A stretch of 26,183 bases of DNA from a virus: positions 1-26,183 of the IMG/VR virus record IMGVR_UViG_3300043436_001921; one strand, given 5' to 3'. The notes under the pieces were generated by a model that was not told the origin of the DNA, made no database searches, and saw nothing but the letters and a program-made list of their open reading frames with translations. Below, piece after piece: positions 5,803 to 17,114 of the stretch; the first letter of the stretch is position 1; each line of letters opens with the position of its first letter. A program made the position numbers and the translations under genes.

Positions 5803-6494
5803 GGACAAACCTTACCGCAATCAACCCATGCCGACCAAGTGGCTGGCATTTGCTCTTTGAAGAAAATCTCAACCGCATCAGCGAATTCACGGATTTCGTA
5901 TTGGGCGTTGACATCGGTGCGTAACGAAAGGAAGTTCATCAACGACCGTGCGTTTACAGTCCAGTAAAACTGGGTATACATAGACACGGGTAGAACCATG
6001 CGTGCAACTTCTTTTGCTACACCCAAATTTACAAGACAAGAGTAAATTTCGTAAGCCTTGGTGTTTACTGCCGAAATCATCTCAACAGCACTCGTAGCCA
6101 AAACATCATCAACAGGTTCAAATGTGTATGCGCCTGGCTTGCCCACCTGGGTGCGAATCGTAGACTCAGCGGGAAGAAAGAACTCATTCGGGACTTCTGA
6201 GTACCGTGCAGAGAATTCATTGAAAGAACCGATGCGATGTCGGAACCACTCACGGGCTACAAACACAGGACACTTGACATGAAAACGAAACGAGTTATGC
6301 TCAAAAGGAGTTCCATGTCGTTCTCGCATCAAAAAACCAATCAAACCTTTATCTTTTCCTGACAAATCCGCATGAATCTCGGATGACTGTTGGGCAAAAG
6401 AAACTCTCGCTGAGTTGACCACCGAATAATCATCAGCCATCACACCGTCAAGTCGGACAAACCCTTCGGAAATGGAAATTGTTGCGCCACTCAT
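5799..6494 (-). CDS. thyX: Flavin-dependent thymidylate synthase ThyX
   Basis: 231 residues, normal length for ThyX. The signature RHRxxSx4SxR is present as RHRIGSFNEFSAR at 85-97, and the upstream RHGTPFEHNSF (59-69) is the conserved FAD/substrate segment. ThyX makes dTMP from dUMP using methylenetetrahydrofolate, NADPH and FAD, and supplies thymidine for phage DNA synthesis. It is coupled to WhiB upstream (ATGA at 6494-6491) and to primase downstream (GTGA), so nucleotide supply and replication are co-expressed. The start is the ATG at 6494. Confidence 0.95.
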   Translation of the reverse strand: MSGATISISEGFVRLDGVMADDYSVVNSARVSFAQQSSEIHADLSGKDKGLIGFLMRERHGTPFEHNSFRFHVKCPVFVAREWFRHRIGSFNEFSARYSEVPNEFFLPAESTIRTQVGKPGAYTFEPVDDVLATSAVEMISAVNTKAYEIYSCLVNLGVAKEVARMVLPVSMYTQFYWTVNARSLMNFLSLRTDVNAQYEIREFADAVEIFFKEQMPATWSAWVDCGKVCP

Positions 6495-6823
6495 CTGTAA
6501 GCCTCTCGTGTTTTTTCTATGTTGTTTAGTCTGCGGGACATACGCACTGTTTGCTGACTCATCGTGTTGATGGCAAAGTCGCTGAGTTGTATTCCCAGCC
6601 GTCGTCGTTCTATTTCTCTTTCGGCTTCACGCATCCCTCCCCAAATTCCATGTGTTTCGTGGACAAGGGCATGACTCAAACACGGGGAACGCACGGGGCA
6701 CGCCCTGCAAATCAAAACCGCTTGGCGTGAAATCGCATAAGATTCCTTGCCTTTGAGCGGATACCACCACTCGGTTGGATGCTCTCGGCACGCACTCCTA
6801 GAAGTGTCAAAGAATTCAGTCAT
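6491..6823 (-). CDS. WhiB-like iron-sulfur transcription factor
   Basis: 110 residues from the ATG at 6823. It has the full WhiB cysteine set: C12, then C39-x2-C42-x5-C48, which would bind a [4Fe-4S] cluster, followed by the GIWGG turn at 59-63 and a basic C-terminal helix. WhiB proteins occur only in Actinobacteria and their phages and bind the primary sigma factor or DNA, which makes this the best host marker in the window. Phage WhiB proteins can block host WhiB2 and cell division. The start is set by GGGGAG five bases before the ATG; the longer frame to 6937 covers the promoter region. It is coupled to ThyX by ATGA. Confidence 0.93.
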   Translation of the reverse strand: MTEFFDTSRSACREHPTEWWYPLKGKESYAISRQAVLICRACPVRSPCLSHALVHETHGIWGGMREAEREIERRRLGIQLSDFAINTMSQQTVRMSRRLNNIEKTREAYR

Positions 6824-6848
6824 TGTGCTCCCCGTGTGTAACTGCTCG

Positions 6849-6877
6849 CAGGTTACACGGAGATTATGCGTAATGAC
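6849..6877 (-). promoter_or_regulatory. Possible promoter of whiB-thyX operon
   Basis: Upstream of WhiB on the minus strand there is a CATAAT -10 (inside ACGCATAATCTCC) with a T-rich -35 region about 16-17 bases away. It lacks the TGACACACCC box used elsewhere. Assignment by eye; the -35 is weak. Confidence 0.4.
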
Positions 6878-6890
6878 AAATCGTGAAAAA

Positions 6891-7283
6891 CTATTTGCGT
6901 CTGTCAGCCTGTGGGTCACGAAGTTCGTAGAGTCCACGCTTTATCTTGCGAAAGATGTCAGGTCGTTCTCCGATGAATTTGAGTGCTGTTGGATAGGAGA
7001 TGTCTCCCACTTCCATGACTTGCTGTGGTGTTACTTGCTCAAATAAGTGTTCTTGTGTCCAGTCAATAATTGACTGATATTTCTCTACTCGCTTGACAGA
7101 AATACGCCCAGCGTTGTCCATCATTTCTAATAGCGTTGGGTACGGTACTAATTTGCGTATACGACTGGGTACGACAGCAATCCACATTGGTCTGCCGTAC
7201 TCTGCAATTGCGTCAGCGATGATTTCCATCGCCTCCTCTTGCGTGATTTCTACTGCGTATTCAATTACTTGGGTGTCGCTCAC
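6891..7283 (-). CDS. Hypothetical protein with possible winged-helix C-terminus
   Basis: 130 residues with no family I can name. The N-terminus is acidic and helical; the C-terminal part (about 80-125) has TPQQVMEVGDISYPTALKFI then RKIKRGLYEL, the rhythm of a winged helix with a helix-turn-helix followed by a wing. A DNA-binding role is therefore plausible but unproven. It is coupled to the gene before it by an ATGA overlap at 7283-7280 and is separated from WhiB by 67 bases that hold the WhiB promoter. Confidence 0.7.
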   Translation of the reverse strand: MSDTQVIEYAVEITQEEAMEIIADAIAEYGRPMWIAVVPSRIRKLVPYPTLLEMMDNAGRISVKRVEKYQSIIDWTQEHLFEQVTPQQVMEVGDISYPTALKFIGERPDIFRKIKRGLYELRDPQADRRK

Positions 7284-10983: not shown

Positions 10984-12006
10984 TTAGACGAGTGCGAGAA
11001 CTGCGTGCTGTGCTTCAATCTTTTTGCGTGTCACCCATGAGGTGTCGTCCATTGAAGCCTGAGCCATTGCGAGTTTGTCGTCATCACGGTAGTGGTCAAG
11101 GTATTCAACAATTGAATTGTAAATACTCCAGCCGTTGTACCCATAGTTCTTGCCGTTTCGTTCGTTGGTGTAAAGACCACGAACCATTTGGTTGATTTCT
11201 TCACGATTGCGACGCTGACGGTCTGTTTCGTCTTTCTTCGGTACGAACACACGGTCAACTACCTTGTCAACAGCGTTAGAGCCGAGAGGTACTGGGATTG
11301 CCAGCATGCGCTCCGCCATGTCCTTGAATGATTTTGCCCATTCCACGGAGATGCGAAGAGCCTCGTTAGCGTCCTGAATTGCTGTGTCCACATTGCGTGT
11401 GTGACGAGCAGTAAAGACACGCTCTGCGTCCTTGATACCCATGATGACAGTGTTCTGACATACAGCACGAATGTCGGTATTCGCATACCGAATCGGCCAA
11501 ATGCCGTCATGACCTGTACTCACTACCAAGAAGCGAGCAATACGGTCGTTCACACCCATAGGGTCAATAACAAGTGTCCCTAGGTCAATCGTGGAAAAGA
11601 AACGAGCGCCGTCTTTGAGAACGCCACAGGTGTCAATCACAGCGTCACCCTTGGTTGCTCCCACAACAGCGAGAGCACGCTCCATCACTTCACGGTTCTG
11701 TCGCACCTCGTAACGAGTACCAACAGTAGCGATGGAATCGTAGGTGCCGTCACCGTTGTCACGGACTGTTGCACGACTGTCGTCAATAAGGACGGGTTTG
11801 CCGTACTTGTCAACAATGAGGTTTCCTTCATCATCAACTGCTGCAACCTTTGTGAGAAGAACTTCATAATCCGCTTGTGCTGCTTCAAGCATTGCATCAA
11901 GGGTTTGAAGACCCTTCATGGGTTTACCAAGTCGGTGCCACGGAGCCTCACGGTCTGCGTATGCGAACCGAGCCGTTCCGTTAGTAATTTCTAAATTGTG
12001 AGCCAT
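10984..12006 (-). CDS. DUF932 phage/plasmid-like protein
   Basis: 340 residues, typical for the DUF932 (phage/plasmid-like, TIGR03299) family. The N-terminal signature is clear: MAHNLE near the start, then APWHRLG (the A-W-H-G-L-G motif of the family), followed by a conserved beta-rich core with VDKYGKPVL, the YEVRQNREVME segment and the RAVCQNTVIMG segment. The molecular role of the family is unknown; members are found in phages, plasmids and near defence or conjugation genes, and are often abundant transcripts. Own promoter, leader hairpin, TTAGAAAGG Shine-Dalgarno and strong terminator make it a stand-alone, probably highly expressed unit. Confidence 0.9.
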   Translation of the reverse strand: MAHNLEITNGTARFAYADREAPWHRLGKPMKGLQTLDAMLEAAQADYEVLLTKVAAVDDEGNLIVDKYGKPVLIDDSRATVRDNGDGTYDSIATVGTRYEVRQNREVMERALAVVGATKGDAVIDTCGVLKDGARFFSTIDLGTLVIDPMGVNDRIARFLVVSTGHDGIWPIRYANTDIRAVCQNTVIMGIKDAERVFTARHTRNVDTAIQDANEALRISVEWAKSFKDMAERMLAIPVPLGSNAVDKVVDRVFVPKKDETDRQRRNREEINQMVRGLYTNERNGKNYGYNGWSIYNSIVEYLDHYRDDDKLAMAQASMDDTSWVTRKKIEAQHAVLALV

Positions 12007-12093: not shown

Positions 12094-13089
12094 TTATTTA
12101 TTACTTCCCGATGTTGCTGACCAGTGATTAAGTCCGCCATCGTCAAGCAAGGCTTTGGCGACTTTTAGATTGCACTCCGTCTTCAACAAAGGGGTCATGT
12201 CGCCGTACCTAGTCCCGCAAACCCTTGCTGTTAAAGTCTTCCACGACGAATTTATTTGAAGCAACCCACTGTCGTATGACCTGACGGCTGGACACTTTTT
12301 GTAGATGTGTGCTGGTGCCAACTGACAATTCTTGTGACTCATGCCTTTGTGGTAATTCCAGCCAATAACTTTTATTTTGCATCGGCTTTCCCTCCACATG
12401 ATGTACGAAAACTTCTTTACAGGGACAAGACCATGTTCTTTGAGTTTCTTTTCCCATTGCGGGCATCTCTTCACCGTGCTGTTTGCGCTTTGAGCAGAAA
12501 CCGTTCCCGACCTCTTGGACGGGTTGCGGGACTCTTTCCACTCAGCCATACCTGATTCGGTATATCTCTCCCTGGATGGTTTACGGGTTTCCCAGTTCAC
12601 GCATCCTCGTCCCCAGTTCTTCATGCTTCTCCACCCGACGGCTGGTCTGAAAAACGGCTTATTGTTTTCTCTATCTTCCAGCGAACGAAAGGTGTTTTTG
12701 GTTTGAAAGCCAAAGAAAGCGACCCTGTTTGCAACAATTATCTGCTCGTGCTTGGTTGCCTTCTGTGGAGTAGAAGCGAACTGTTTCCCCCCGTAGTTTG
12801 CCCAAACGCTTTTTGCCATTCCGAGTCCACCAGCAAAGTACCCGTGGTCATCCCAGTCGTGGTTTGTTTCGCACCAAGCAACTGCTTCCCAGAACTTGAT
12901 TGAGCCCCCCTTGCGACTCTTTAGTTGTTGGACCAATTCGGGATGCATCGTCTCTGCTTGGAGTACGGGACTAACGCCGAAGTTGGATTTTGTAGGTTCA
13001 GTAGGTGTTGCGTAAGCCGTTGTTGGTATTAGAGCCGTGGCTGACATTACGGCTGAGACAATAAAAGTCCCTAATATTTTTGATTTCAT
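12094..13089 (-). CDS. Secreted muralytic protein: Rpf-like plus lysozyme/transglycosylase domains
   Basis: 331 residues. A signal peptide (basic MKSK, hydrophobic core, cleavage probable after TAYA, residue 27) exports it. Residues about 64-125 match the resuscitation-promoting-factor/transglycosylase fold: FWEAVAWCETNHDW with Glu74, then GGLGM and a KHEQIIVANRVA helix. Residues about 225-328 form a second lysozyme-like domain: YIMWRESRC with Glu234, SGLLQINSSW at 274-283, and a Cys-containing end closing with LNHWS. Each has a plausible catalytic Glu, so the protein could cut the glycan strands of host peptidoglycan with two active sites. Start ATG 13089 has AAGGAG upstream. It could be an endolysin with its own export signal or a host-type Rpf; I favour the former. 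Confidence 0.87.
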   Translation of the reverse strand: MKSKILGTFIVSAVMSATALIPTTAYATPTEPTKSNFGVSPVLQAETMHPELVQQLKSRKGGSIKFWEAVAWCETNHDWDDHGYFAGGLGMAKSVWANYGGKQFASTPQKATKHEQIIVANRVAFFGFQTKNTFRSLEDRENNKPFFRPAVGWRSMKNWGRGCVNWETRKPSRERYTESGMAEWKESRNPSKRSGTVSAQSANSTVKRCPQWEKKLKEHGLVPVKKFSYIMWRESRCKIKVIGWNYHKGMSHKNCQLAPAHIYKKCPAVRSYDSGLLQINSSWKTLTARVCGTRYGDMTPLLKTECNLKVAKALLDDGGLNHWSATSGSNK

Positions 13090-13179
13090 TGTTTTTCTCC
13101 TTCGCTGGGTGGATAAGGAACGCTGTTTGTCGGAAGGTAGTTAGGCGCAAACGGCGTTTTCTATGTCAAGTAGTCACGA

Positions 13180-13674: not shown

Positions 13675-15588
13675 TTAGGACAAACCCCGTTGCGTAAACA
13701 AACTAACCAAGGCTGAACCAACACTCTCACCACTCGCCACACCGCCCTCGGTAGCCACATCAACAATCGCACGCTTGTCCTCAATCAAGTTGTACATATG
13801 TTCATCAATCGTGTCTTCGCACAACAAATAAGTAACAACCACACTTCCTTTTTGCCCAAGACGATGACACCGTGAATAAGTTTGGTCAAGGTCGGCAGGT
13901 GTCCAAGGAAGTTCAAGAAACAAAACATCTTGCGCCGCCGTCAAAGTATGACCCGTCTTGGCGGCTTGGATACTTAGCACCATCACGGGCGCAGTCCCGA
14001 CAGGTTCTTCTTGAAAGCGGGACTTACTTTCTTCAACATCTTCAATGTCCATACCGCCTTGAATTTTCAATCCTCCGAATCTTTCGCTGAGTTCGTTTAC
14101 TATTTCTCGGTGATGCGCCGCAATAACAACTTTGTGTCCTGATTCAATGTGTTGTTCCACGAGTTCAATAACCGCAGGCATCTTTGCTTTCGCTGCAAGT
14201 TTGCGCAACACAGACATTTCAACAAGTGCTTGGTTGTATTCGGCTTTGATGCGTGCAAGAACTTCCGCTGACTTTGGATTTTTTCCGAGTTCTTCCGCAA
14301 TTCGTCTGGCTTGCTCCGCCAGATACTCAACGATGTTGTCTTCGGCTTTCTTGTATTCCCGCATCGCCGCATCAGTCCCGCTAACAAATACGGGGTTGTG
14401 TCGCACGGGTGGTAAGTCAGGAAGAACTTGTTCTTTGGTTCGTCGGATGTAACAGTTTCCACGCAACTTTTCGTTGAGTTCATCCATGTGGCTGTTACCT
14501 GAAATGTTCCATTGACCGAATCTGTCACGAAAAGCGTTGCAATACCTTCGGTAAAAACCCCATAAACCTCCGAAATCATCAAGTTTTCCGAGAGCATCCA
14601 GTTGAGGTCCATACTCGGCTGGTCGGTTCGTGATGGGTGTTCCAGTCAAACAAAGAACAACGCCATCTTGCGGGGCTGATTTGGCAATCTTGATGGCGGA
14701 CTTTGTGCGTTGTGCCGTCGGTGATTTGATGTAGTGAGATTCGTCAAACACATAACCTGCGTGACCAAGCAGTTGCTTTTGCCAATGCTGAATGTTTGAA
14801 TAGCCGACAACAAGAACTTCGTACCCTTGTTCGGGGAAATCTTTTCGGTTGATGACAGTTGCGACCTTTCGGTTCGGCAACCACTTCTCGTATTCTTTTG
14901 CCCAGTTCAGTACTAGGTTCGGTGGACATACTATAACAGAGGGGTATGTCAGGGTTTCTTCCAGTGTTGCGATTGCTTGCAAAGTTTTTCCCAGGCCCAT
15001 GTCGTCTGCAATGAAACATCTCCTGGCCCTGGATGCGTACTCCACGCCAGCCTTCTGGTACGGAAGCAATGGAAGCCCCGCAACATCTATTGTTCCTTCG
15101 GTCGCACGGGACTTCTCTACCGACGCTTCGTGCTTCGTGCGCAACTCGCTACTCATCTCTACGAGGTCGGATGGGAGTTTCTCTCGGAAGGTGCTTGCCC
15201 AGTTGATTACTTCGTGGATGGAACTCAGGGGAGCACGCCATGCTTTGGTCTTTGCGTGCCAAGTTATGCTCGCTATTGTCTTGACGGCTTTTACTTTTAC
15301 TGGGTCATACGCAAAACTTAGGTAAATCCAGTCGTCTTCTTTACGGATGCCAAAAACATTGTTGTCTGGTTTTGGTAAATCAAACAGCAGAACTTCGGAG
15401 TCAATGTCAAACTCGTGCTTTGTTGCGAAGTCCCGCGCTTCATGAAGGCTTCCCATCGGGACTCGCCAGACTTTTGCTAGTTTGTCCCACTTTGCGCCAT
15501 GAACGAGTTTTACTTCGGCAACTTGCGAAGCGTCGTACGGAAAGTCAAGTATTAGATGGTCGTCATTGAGAAAAAGTCGTGATGTCAT
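13675..15588 (-). CDS. SNF2-family helicase with duplicated HARP-like domain
   Basis: 637 residues. Two copies of a HARP-like module open the protein (about 10-60 and 85-135): each runs hydrophobic strand, F-x-YD, VK, W-x-x-x-x-K-x-W-R-x-P, then a helix. The SNF2 ATPase follows: LLPYQKAGVEY, Walker A DDMGLGKT (195-202), DESH (282-285), LTGTPITNR, and the second lobe ending with LPWTPADLDQTYSRCHRLGQ (motif VI). This domain order is that of SMARCAL1/HARP-type annealing helicases, which rewind single-stranded bubbles and remodel stalled forks; phage members probably help replication or recombination. The start ATG at 15588 has no strong ribosome site. One complete AGCCCCG...CGGGACT repeat pair lies within the coding sequence (15074-15113). 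Confidence 0.9.
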   Translation of the reverse strand: MTSRLFLNDDHLILDFPYDASQVAEVKLVHGAKWDKLAKVWRVPMGSLHEARDFATKHEFDIDSEVLLFDLPKPDNNVFGIRKEDDWIYLSFAYDPVKVKAVKTIASITWHAKTKAWRAPLSSIHEVINWASTFREKLPSDLVEMSSELRTKHEASVEKSRATEGTIDVAGLPLLPYQKAGVEYASRARRCFIADDMGLGKTLQAIATLEETLTYPSVIVCPPNLVLNWAKEYEKWLPNRKVATVINRKDFPEQGYEVLVVGYSNIQHWQKQLLGHAGYVFDESHYIKSPTAQRTKSAIKIAKSAPQDGVVLCLTGTPITNRPAEYGPQLDALGKLDDFGGLWGFYRRYCNAFRDRFGQWNISGNSHMDELNEKLRGNCYIRRTKEQVLPDLPPVRHNPVFVSGTDAAMREYKKAEDNIVEYLAEQARRIAEELGKNPKSAEVLARIKAEYNQALVEMSVLRKLAAKAKMPAVIELVEQHIESGHKVVIAAHHREIVNELSERFGGLKIQGGMDIEDVEESKSRFQEEPVGTAPVMVLSIQAAKTGHTLTAAQDVLFLELPWTPADLDQTYSRCHRLGQKGSVVVTYLLCEDTIDEHMYNLIEDKRAIVDVATEGGVASGESVGSALVSLFTQRGLS

Positions 15589-15981: not shown

Positions 15982-16006
15982 CCCTCACCGAAAGGTGGGG
16001 GTTTTT
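15982..16006 (+). terminator. Terminator with GAAA loop
   Basis: CCCTCACC and GGTGGGGG pair around GAAA, then five Ts. The same stem-loop recurs with small changes at 18417 and, with a different loop, at 16824. Confidence 0.9.
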
Positions 16007-16010
16007 CTTT

Positions 16011-16209
16011 GTCTTTGTTCAGTAGCCCCGCCGTAGCGCCTGGCCCTCGGGGCTTCTGCGTGTGTGCCGTGTTGTTTTCGGGGCGGGACTCCGCTCCCCG
16101 TGCGGGCGCAGGTGTGTGCGGGCGCAGGTGCGCCCCCGTGCGTGAGGCTGTGCGCTCTCACTCTGACCGTTCGCTTCGCTCACCCCGTCAAGGCTTCGGA
16201 TAAGTTTAT
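16011..16209 (+). repeat. GC-rich intergenic block with AGCCCCG...CGGGACT element 1
   Basis: This gene-free stretch is far richer in GC than its surroundings. AGCCCCG (16024-16030) is followed by CGGGGCT (16048-16054) and CGGGACT (16084-16090). A 16-base unit, GTGCGGGCGCAGGTGT-like, is repeated twice at about 16098-16130. Open frames here are compositional and I call no gene. Confidence 0.7.
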
Positions 16210-16238
16210 TTGACTTTGATACACCCATGTGTCAAACT
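16210..16238 (+). promoter_or_regulatory. Boxed promoter module P6
   Basis: TTGACT (16210-16215), TGATACACCC box from 16217, CAAACT -10 (16233-16238). The box and flank form the inverted pair TGATACA...TGTGTCA. It drives the DUF6011-like gene. Confidence 0.85.
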
Positions 16239-16247
16239 TGTTTTATC

Positions 16248-16266
16248 GCTTGACACCCCGTCAAGC
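16248..16266 (+). promoter_or_regulatory. 5'-terminal hairpin of the gene at 16290
   Basis: GCTTGAC (16248-16254) and GTCAAGC (16260-16266) make a perfect 7-bp stem with loop ACCCC, about 3-4 bases from the predicted transcript start. It replaces the ACCTACTAGA leader and may stabilise the mRNA. Confidence 0.65.
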
Positions 16267-16289
16267 CTTAGCCCCTGAAAGAGGTTCCC

Positions 16290-16787
16290 ATGTCCACACT
16301 CACCCCTATCCCCGTCGCAGAACTTGCGGCTTGGCTGTCCGAGCAAACTTGGTCAGGTTTCGCTCAGTCGCTTGCGACCTTTTATGCTCGCAACGGTCAC
16401 CTGTCCGACAAGCAGGAAGCGTCTGCTCGCTCAATGTACGAAAAGGCTCAGGCTCGTCAGGCTGGTCGTCAGGCTCAGGCTCCTGCAAACCCCGTCACCG
16501 AGGTCGGTATGTACCTCAACGCTGAGGGCGTGGCTTTCCGTGTCAAGCGTTCGCAGGCTGGTCGTCTCTACGCTTCACGCTTCGTTCCTGAGGCTCAGGC
16601 TCGTGCTGACCGCTTCGTGTACGAGGGCGGTGCGGTGTACCGCTTGGACGCTTCCATGCGCATGACCTTGGAGCAGGCTAAGGCTCTCGGTGCGCAGTAC
16701 TCGCAGTGCTGTGTGTGTGGGCGTGACCTCTCCGCTGAGCAGTCAGTTGAGGCTGGTATCGGACCCGTCTGCGCAGGGCGACTCTAA
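16290..16787 (+). CDS. DUF6011-like zinc protein
   Basis: 165 residues. The C-terminus holds the recognisable knuckle CCVCGRDLSAEQSVEAGIGP and a closing Cys161: C140-x2-C143 and the S-x3-GIGP-x-C pattern of DUF6011 proteins, known from actinobacteria and their phages. Before it lies a beta-rich part with VYRLDASMRM. The N-terminal half is an Ala/Gln/Arg-rich helix-linker (EKAQARQAGRQAQAPANP). Role unknown. Codon use is clearly richer in G and C than in neighbouring genes (many GCT, CAG, CGT and CTC), so the gene may be a recent arrival together with its GC-rich flank. AAAGAGG precedes the ATG at 16290; a strong terminator follows. Confidence 0.85.
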   Translation: MSTLTPIPVAELAAWLSEQTWSGFAQSLATFYARNGHLSDKQEASARSMYEKAQARQAGRQAQAPANPVTEVGMYLNAEGVAFRVKRSQAGRLYASRFVPEAQARADRFVYEGGAVYRLDASMRMTLEQAKALGAQYSQCCVCGRDLSAEQSVEAGIGPVCAGRL

Positions 16788-16823
16788 CCCCCTCTGCGCC
16801 CCTCACGGGGGCGTAGCCACTTA

Positions 16824-16855
16824 GACCCTCACCTCGCTACGGGGTGGGGGTCTTT
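16824..16855 (+). terminator. Terminator of the DUF6011-like gene
   Basis: GACCCTCACC pairs with GGTGGGGGTC (10 bp) around a 9-base loop, followed by TTTC. A second hairpin, CGCCCC...GGGGCG, lies just before it (about 16797-16813). The T-run is short. Confidence 0.75.
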
Positions 16856-16943
16856 CGGCGTTCTAGGGGCGTTCTGAGGGCAATGTCCGATTACGGCACT
16901 CAACACCCCTCTATGTGGTTGTAAGCAAATGAAAGGGCTCACC

Positions 16944-17114
16944 ATGACAACGACACACAACACCGCTATCTGTGCGTACTGCGCAGACGACTACAACCAA
17001 ATGCAACTCGTCCGTCTCTACGGAGAGGAGTTCAGCAACTACTTAGAGGAGAGTTCAGACTCCTCAGCAATCTGCGCTATCTGTGACCTTCCGTGCGAGA
17101 GAACTCGCTTCTGA
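16944..17114 (+). CDS. Small zinc-finger protein (56 aa)
   Basis: 56 residues from the ATG at 16944; AAAGGG eight bases upstream sets the start, and an ATG at 16929 is the alternative. It has two Cys-x2-Cys pairs, CAYC near residue 10 and CAIC near 45, followed by one more Cys in LPCERTRF, the layout of a treble-clef or two-knuckle zinc domain. The acidic centre (LYGEEFSNYLEESSDSS) separates them. Upstream there is only a degenerate box (CAACACCCCTC) and no leader motif, so the promoter is unclear. Function unknown. Confidence 0.7.
   Translation: MTTTHNTAICAYCADDYNQMQLVRLYGEEFSNYLEESSDSSAICAICDLPCERTRF

Follow-up and report, generated by a model that had tools for sequence, protein, structure and literature searches.

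Whether Rpf domains act through a special signal or by simple cutting of glycan is a question raised by a phage gene that joins an Rpf-like domain to a second, lysozyme-like domain. The gene lies on the minus strand at 12094..13089 of the window, the whole stretch of DNA analysed, which is an entire IMG/VR record of 26,183 bases that has no end repeats and is therefore probably a fragment. The open reading frame and its homologues mark a complete gene of 331 aa (signal peptide, Rpf-like domain, linker and lysozyme-like domain) that starts with an ATG at 13089 and stops at 12094, with a Shine-Dalgarno sequence, AGGAG (13097..13101, minus), 7 nt 5' of the ATG. An earlier note had placed two catalytic glutamates, Glu74 (CETNHDW) and Glu234 (RESRC), behind a signal peptide; both lie exactly where it put them, its coordinates are correct and the strand is minus. 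Residues 1-27 (13009..13089, minus), with a hydrophobic core and an AYA cleavage motif, read by eye as a classical Sec signal peptide with AXA at its end (MKSKILGTFIVSAVMSATALIPTTAYA|TP). Hydrophobic N-termini are seen in relatives too, and every form of the protein is predicted to be exported. As far as sequence can tell, the protein has the hallmark of exported endolysins of the Lys44 type: it is a putative wall hydrolase headed by a Sec signal peptide that can be cleaved off. The reading frame is not a product of chance: it has about 100 distinct homologues and invariant catalytic residues, and it is under purifying selection (dN/dS ~0.06-0.14 for pairs with unsaturated dS).

The source is probably a phage of aquatic actinobacteria. 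A WhiB-like regulator (6491..6937, minus; PF02467, 1.9e-15), a marker of an actinobacterial host, is encoded in the window and in every other larger record with relatives (21/21, window counted), which makes an actinobacterial host almost certain, and the phage origin proposed earlier can be narrowed to an actinophage; among the relatives, habitat is documented only for phage DSL-LC01 (lake). The window further encodes ThyX, SSB, primase/AAA and ParB-like proteins, along with two markers of the slot: a DUF932 protein (10984..12006, minus), conserved beside the gene in many relatives, and an SNF2-type helicase (13675..15588, minus), recognized by domain search and conserved neighbourhood. Megablast of the window against phage records gave no match. 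The G+C content is 60% at 16001-17000, compared with 45-52% elsewhere in the window, and this stretch includes an ORF (16290-16787) with a Cys-rich end that is conserved in the sister contig G002.

Residues 65-167 (12589..12897, minus) form an Rpf-type transglycosylase-like domain as judged by Pfam (PF06737, 7.3e-15; 55.8 bits against a cut-off of 27), by a profile of the domain that retrieves RpfB at 7e-11, and by structural alignment of the model with RpfB 4emn (Z 12.2, rmsd 1.6 over 78 residues). The codon of the catalytic Glu74, equivalent to RpfB Glu292, lies at 12868..12870 (minus), and Glu74 and the preceding Cys73 are invariant in 58/58 relatives. The domain shares with RpfB and RpfC the fold, the catalytic Glu and preceding Cys, the Trp79 pocket and secretion (features from PMC11978375). 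Unlike these proteins, it has GGLG in place of GG(V/L)Q and ~30 additional residues before the last Cys, is phage-encoded, is joined to a second lysozyme domain and scores well short of the NCBIfam equivalog cut-offs for Rpf (36.3 against 200 bits and 22.7 against 180 bits). RpfB Gln310 and Asp312, which contact sugar (PMC11978375) and typify the mycobacterial enzyme rather than the whole Rpf family, are replaced by Gly in 58/58 relatives and by Ala in 52/58 (the other relatives have Ser or Glu), respectively. The Rpf domain here is a divergent subtype. A weak Pfam match to ribosomal L21e and NCBIfam matches to other families were rejected as noise.

The second half, residues 207-331 (12097..12471, minus), is a C-type-lysozyme/SLT-like domain, as indicated by matches of relatives to PF01464, PF18896 and PF00062, by profile and by structure. 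The window protein itself gave no Pfam match above cut-off in this domain; among relatives, SLT/SLT_3 was matched by 14/16 (best 5e-11) and C-type lysozyme PF00062 by 3/16 at E<=1 (best 3.4e-4), and the SLT match is barely over the cut-off in DSL-LC01 and in a three-part relative (L108). A profile of the domain retrieves lysozymes of bird eggs (5.5e-5), in which D52-YGILQINS lines up with D273-SGLLQINS, and structural alignment of the modelled residues with hen lysozyme gives Z ~10.3 and rmsd 2.6 over 95 residues. Glu234 (codon 12388..12390, minus) and Asp273 (codon 12271..12273, minus), the equivalents of lysozyme Glu35 and Asp52, are invariant in 83/83 relatives, as are Gln278 and Asn280; on the model, the combination of fold and Glu35/Asp52 pair that characterizes C-type lysozymes (GH22) is present. 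The cysteines at 209, 237, 291 and 306 are conserved as well. The fold, both acidic residues and the D-x-G-(L)-Q-I-N motif are shared with PF00062, PF01464 and PF18896; the differences are that the domain forms a subfamily of its own, with an extra loop (GWNYxxGxSHxxC) in many members, and that the window copy scores under the Pfam cut-offs. This loop distinguishes long from short forms of the domain (window residues ~241-267), both of which occur in fused and in single-domain proteins.

AlphaFold, run on residues 45-331 with a 101-row alignment, yielded a model with mean pLDDT 91 and pTM 0.53, the low pTM being consistent with two domains joined by a flexible linker; a model built from 12 close relatives was discarded (pLDDT 39). 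Foldseek against the PDB returned a best E-value of 6e-3 at probability 1.00. By AlphaFold, Foldseek and structural alignment, a lysozyme fold was obtained for both halves, which bears out the pairing of an Rpf-like with a lysozyme-like domain first proposed from the letters alone. The linker between them (residues 168-206; 12472..12588, minus), delimited by pLDDT and alignment, is partly of low confidence (pLDDT down to 43). It is variable apart from a VS(S/A)QS motif at window residues 197-201 (~12487-12501, minus) that is conserved in most two- and three-part relatives and could be a processing site or a point of module recombination.

The fusion is as unusual as had been suspected. No place in 50,697 phage records covers both domains, and the lysozyme-like domain was found there only in DSL-LC01, as a single-domain 'SLT domain 1' protein without an Rpf domain (42% identical over 115 aa). 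Close matches in BFVD are of single-domain length only: the uncultured Caudovirales proteins A0A6J5MEM6, A0A6J5NM16 and A0A6J5S6J1 (41-59% identical over the matched region) have one domain each by length, are unfused and are annotated as transglycosylase-like, SLT domain 1 or uncharacterized. IMG/VR holds dozens of two-domain relatives on uncultured WhiB-bearing phage contigs, together with Rpf-only, lysozyme-only and three-part forms (Rpf, PG-binding-like segment and lysozyme), the PG-binding-like segment being identified by eye, with none listed by Pfam in the sole member scanned (L108). The Rpf domain is absent from 44/102 loci scored, these loci being related and not independent, so that counts by form are not frequencies. 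Each record carries one gene of this kind (17-21 records checked). A scan of bacterial contigs for phage-derived patterns turned up four loci, in none of which the two domains occur together; scans at class and phylum level around G001 matched only G001, the contig of which is proteobacterial-looking, and plasmids carry single Rpf domains only, in Actinobacteria. A cellular source of the fusion in Actinobacteria is possible. The enzyme kinds are known and the architecture is new: a 2005 account distinguished ten Rpf subfamilies, which have various partner domains, and no second lysozyme was seen among these partners in the available part of that source (PMC1084345). The fusion was not found in the open-access literature searched, with subscription papers and preprints outside that search, and to our reading of that literature both the fusion and the exchange within a slot are apparently undescribed. 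The genes represent a largely unannotated family of predicted exported wall cutters in uncultured actinophages, of which phage reference collections have next to nothing: the 50,697 records include just one relative of the lysozyme half, a single-domain protein.

Domain content varies within three syntenic slots that have homologous flanks on both sides. Slot A holds an Rpf-only gene in L074 and lysozyme-only genes in L172/L177, and its flanks (WhiB and others upstream, a glycosyltransferase downstream) are 44-66% identical on both sides. In slot B, Rpf-only L085 and lysozyme-only L166 lie between flanks that are 43-59% identical, with tail-terminator and head-tail genes in common upstream and major tail and chaperone genes downstream; a further lysozyme-only locus, L134, has the downstream flank in common. 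The window-type slot is lysozyme-only in L025 and has both domains in L048/L015, which come from close relatives, and its main flanking genes (SSB, primase, DUF932 and SNF2) are 60-83% identical. Domains recombine among relatives: L011 and L168 are 96% identical in the lysozyme and 37% in the Rpf domain, L001 and L047 are 85% identical in the Rpf and 62% in the lysozyme domain, and the window protein is nearest to L011 in its Rpf domain (85%) and to L001 in its lysozyme domain (82%). Sequence trees of the two domains conflict, with many forks weakly supported, and the pairwise identities are independent of those forks. The replacement of Rpf by lysozyme domains at one genomic position speaks for a shared task, glycan cleavage, and against the need for a special Rpf signal; the Rpf half is therefore probably a wall cutter and not a wake-up signal. 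An Rpf domain and a plain muramidase in the same slot, plus the fusions, provide matched gene pairs that make the choice between signal and cutting directly testable.

We favour, at a probability of roughly 0.55, an enzyme that is exported by Sec and cuts glycan, either for lysis or to open or degrade the wall. After Sec export and removal of the signal peptide, two independent lysozyme-fold modules would settle in the wall, where the Rpf-type module (catalytic Glu74) and the C-lysozyme/SLT-type module (Glu234 and Asp273) would cut MurNAc-GlcNAc bonds. The modules may be functionally interchangeable cassettes that replace each other, or are joined, within a single slot of the genome, and the protein would degrade the wall for lysis and release, either as an exported endolysin or as a glycosidase helper whose partner, where present, would be an M15 D-Ala-D-Ala-type peptidase endolysin. 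Both folds, the conserved catalytic residues, the predicted export signal, the module exchange and the M15 genes near many lysozyme-only relatives support this reading; bond specificity, the activity of both modules, timing, and lysis rather than growth promotion as the purpose, we infer. Action from outside the cell, as suggested earlier, is possible.

Glycosidase and peptidase are a natural lysis pair. At seven loci, which are closely related to one another, the lysozyme-only gene is preceded at 0.06-0.1 kb by an M15/VanY gene, and such a gene lies within ~2 kb in most of ten further lysozyme-only loci (the exception being L125, ~4.6 kb); Pfam searches of three such M15 genes gave VanY at 3e-17, M15_4 at 5e-4 (below cut-off) and, for the third, no match. 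The M15 and lysozyme genes of DSL-LC01 are ~0.6 kb apart, and its VanY, like that of G010, has a PG-binding-like tail. Against simple lysis, the window gene sits among replication-type genes and neither a holin-like gene nor a peptidase adjoins it there; in G002, a holin-like gene is ~19 kb from the gene. A double muramidase that was made early and freely secreted could lyse the host prematurely, and some control would therefore be needed. As for alternative endolysins, 20-21 records gave no match to Amidase_2, M23 or NlpC/P60, and Peptidase_M15_4 matched once, below cut-off, with VanY in some records; because the records are fragments, the missing further endolysins prove little.

One of the roles raised in the earlier note was to keep slow or dormant hosts growing. 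As such a resuscitation or growth factor, the secreted Rpf module would remodel the walls of the host or its neighbours and keep slow or dormant actinobacteria growing, for a larger burst or new hosts. A true Rpf-type domain with its catalytic Glu, conserved export, purifying selection and the closeness of the window gene to replication genes would fit such a factor, as would the finding that host rpf genes are up during infection by Rhodococcus phage WC1 (PMC10986025), but in the three slots the Rpf module is variously present, lost or swapped for a plain lysozyme, many of the loci scored have none, and positions 310 and 312, at which RpfB contacts sugar, carry other residues here. A specific role in dormancy or resuscitation is neither supported nor needed for the explanation, and we consider it rather unlikely. 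That an early-secreted Rpf enzyme also wakes neighbouring slow or dormant cells as new hosts, with the lysozyme modules that replace it doing likewise, is very doubtful; if true, resuscitation would be mild glycan cutting and nothing more.

Export, and the early-type genes that adjoin the gene in many loci (SNF2 helicase, SSB, DUF932 and WhiB), would also suit an early change of the surface or wall (superinfection block, or passage of DNA or protein) or an attack on neighbours in place of final lysis, as would the separate VanY genes, non-secreted M15 endolysin candidates, of G010, G202 and G203. This is unlikely, given that slot B places the gene amid tail terminator, major tail, chaperone and tape measure genes, which suggests late expression, and that the M15 gene directly upstream in seven lysozyme-only relatives is arranged as in a lysis cassette. 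Slot B lies within the tail module, and mycobacteriophage tape measure (Tmp) proteins carry Rpf motifs (PMC1796659), which would be in keeping with a lysin that is part of the virion and breaches the wall at entry. Those motifs are likewise phage-borne Rpf-type domains, but they belong to a very large virion protein and not to a small secreted one, and a virion role is highly improbable for a protein that stands alone, bears a Sec signal peptide and is encoded in the window outside any structural module, the more so as a relative already has another protein, of the tail, in which VanY and SLT-like motifs occur (L203).

For an exported glycan cutter serving lysis, the preferred reading, Lys44 of phage fOg44 offers a comparison, although its catalytic domains and architecture differ from those of the protein here. 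Lys44 is a precedent for signal-peptide endolysins (PMC6116005) and is, like the protein here as predicted from its sequence, a phage wall hydrolase with Sec export; the Lys44-type lysis cassette has an adjacent holin, unlike the window. Endolysins of the Lys44 type become active when the membrane potential is lost.

Two further kinds of protein were observed. The protein at L203:538-3324 (minus; record G014) is a 929-aa tail/tape-measure-like protein with VanY and a second SLT-like motif (HRESRF...YGLMQIN), so that this phage has a separate virion lysin alongside a secreted Rpf-only protein. In L103 (4162-6711), L104 (3997-6675) and L105, an OafA/SGNH-type acyltransferase ends C-terminally in a GGLG-subtype Rpf domain, accompanied by a PG-binding-like segment in L103 and L104. 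PMC1084345 describes Rpf as confined to actinobacteria; the neighbours on these three contigs are proteobacterial-looking (TonB receptor and transporter, with GlpK/GlpD in L104).
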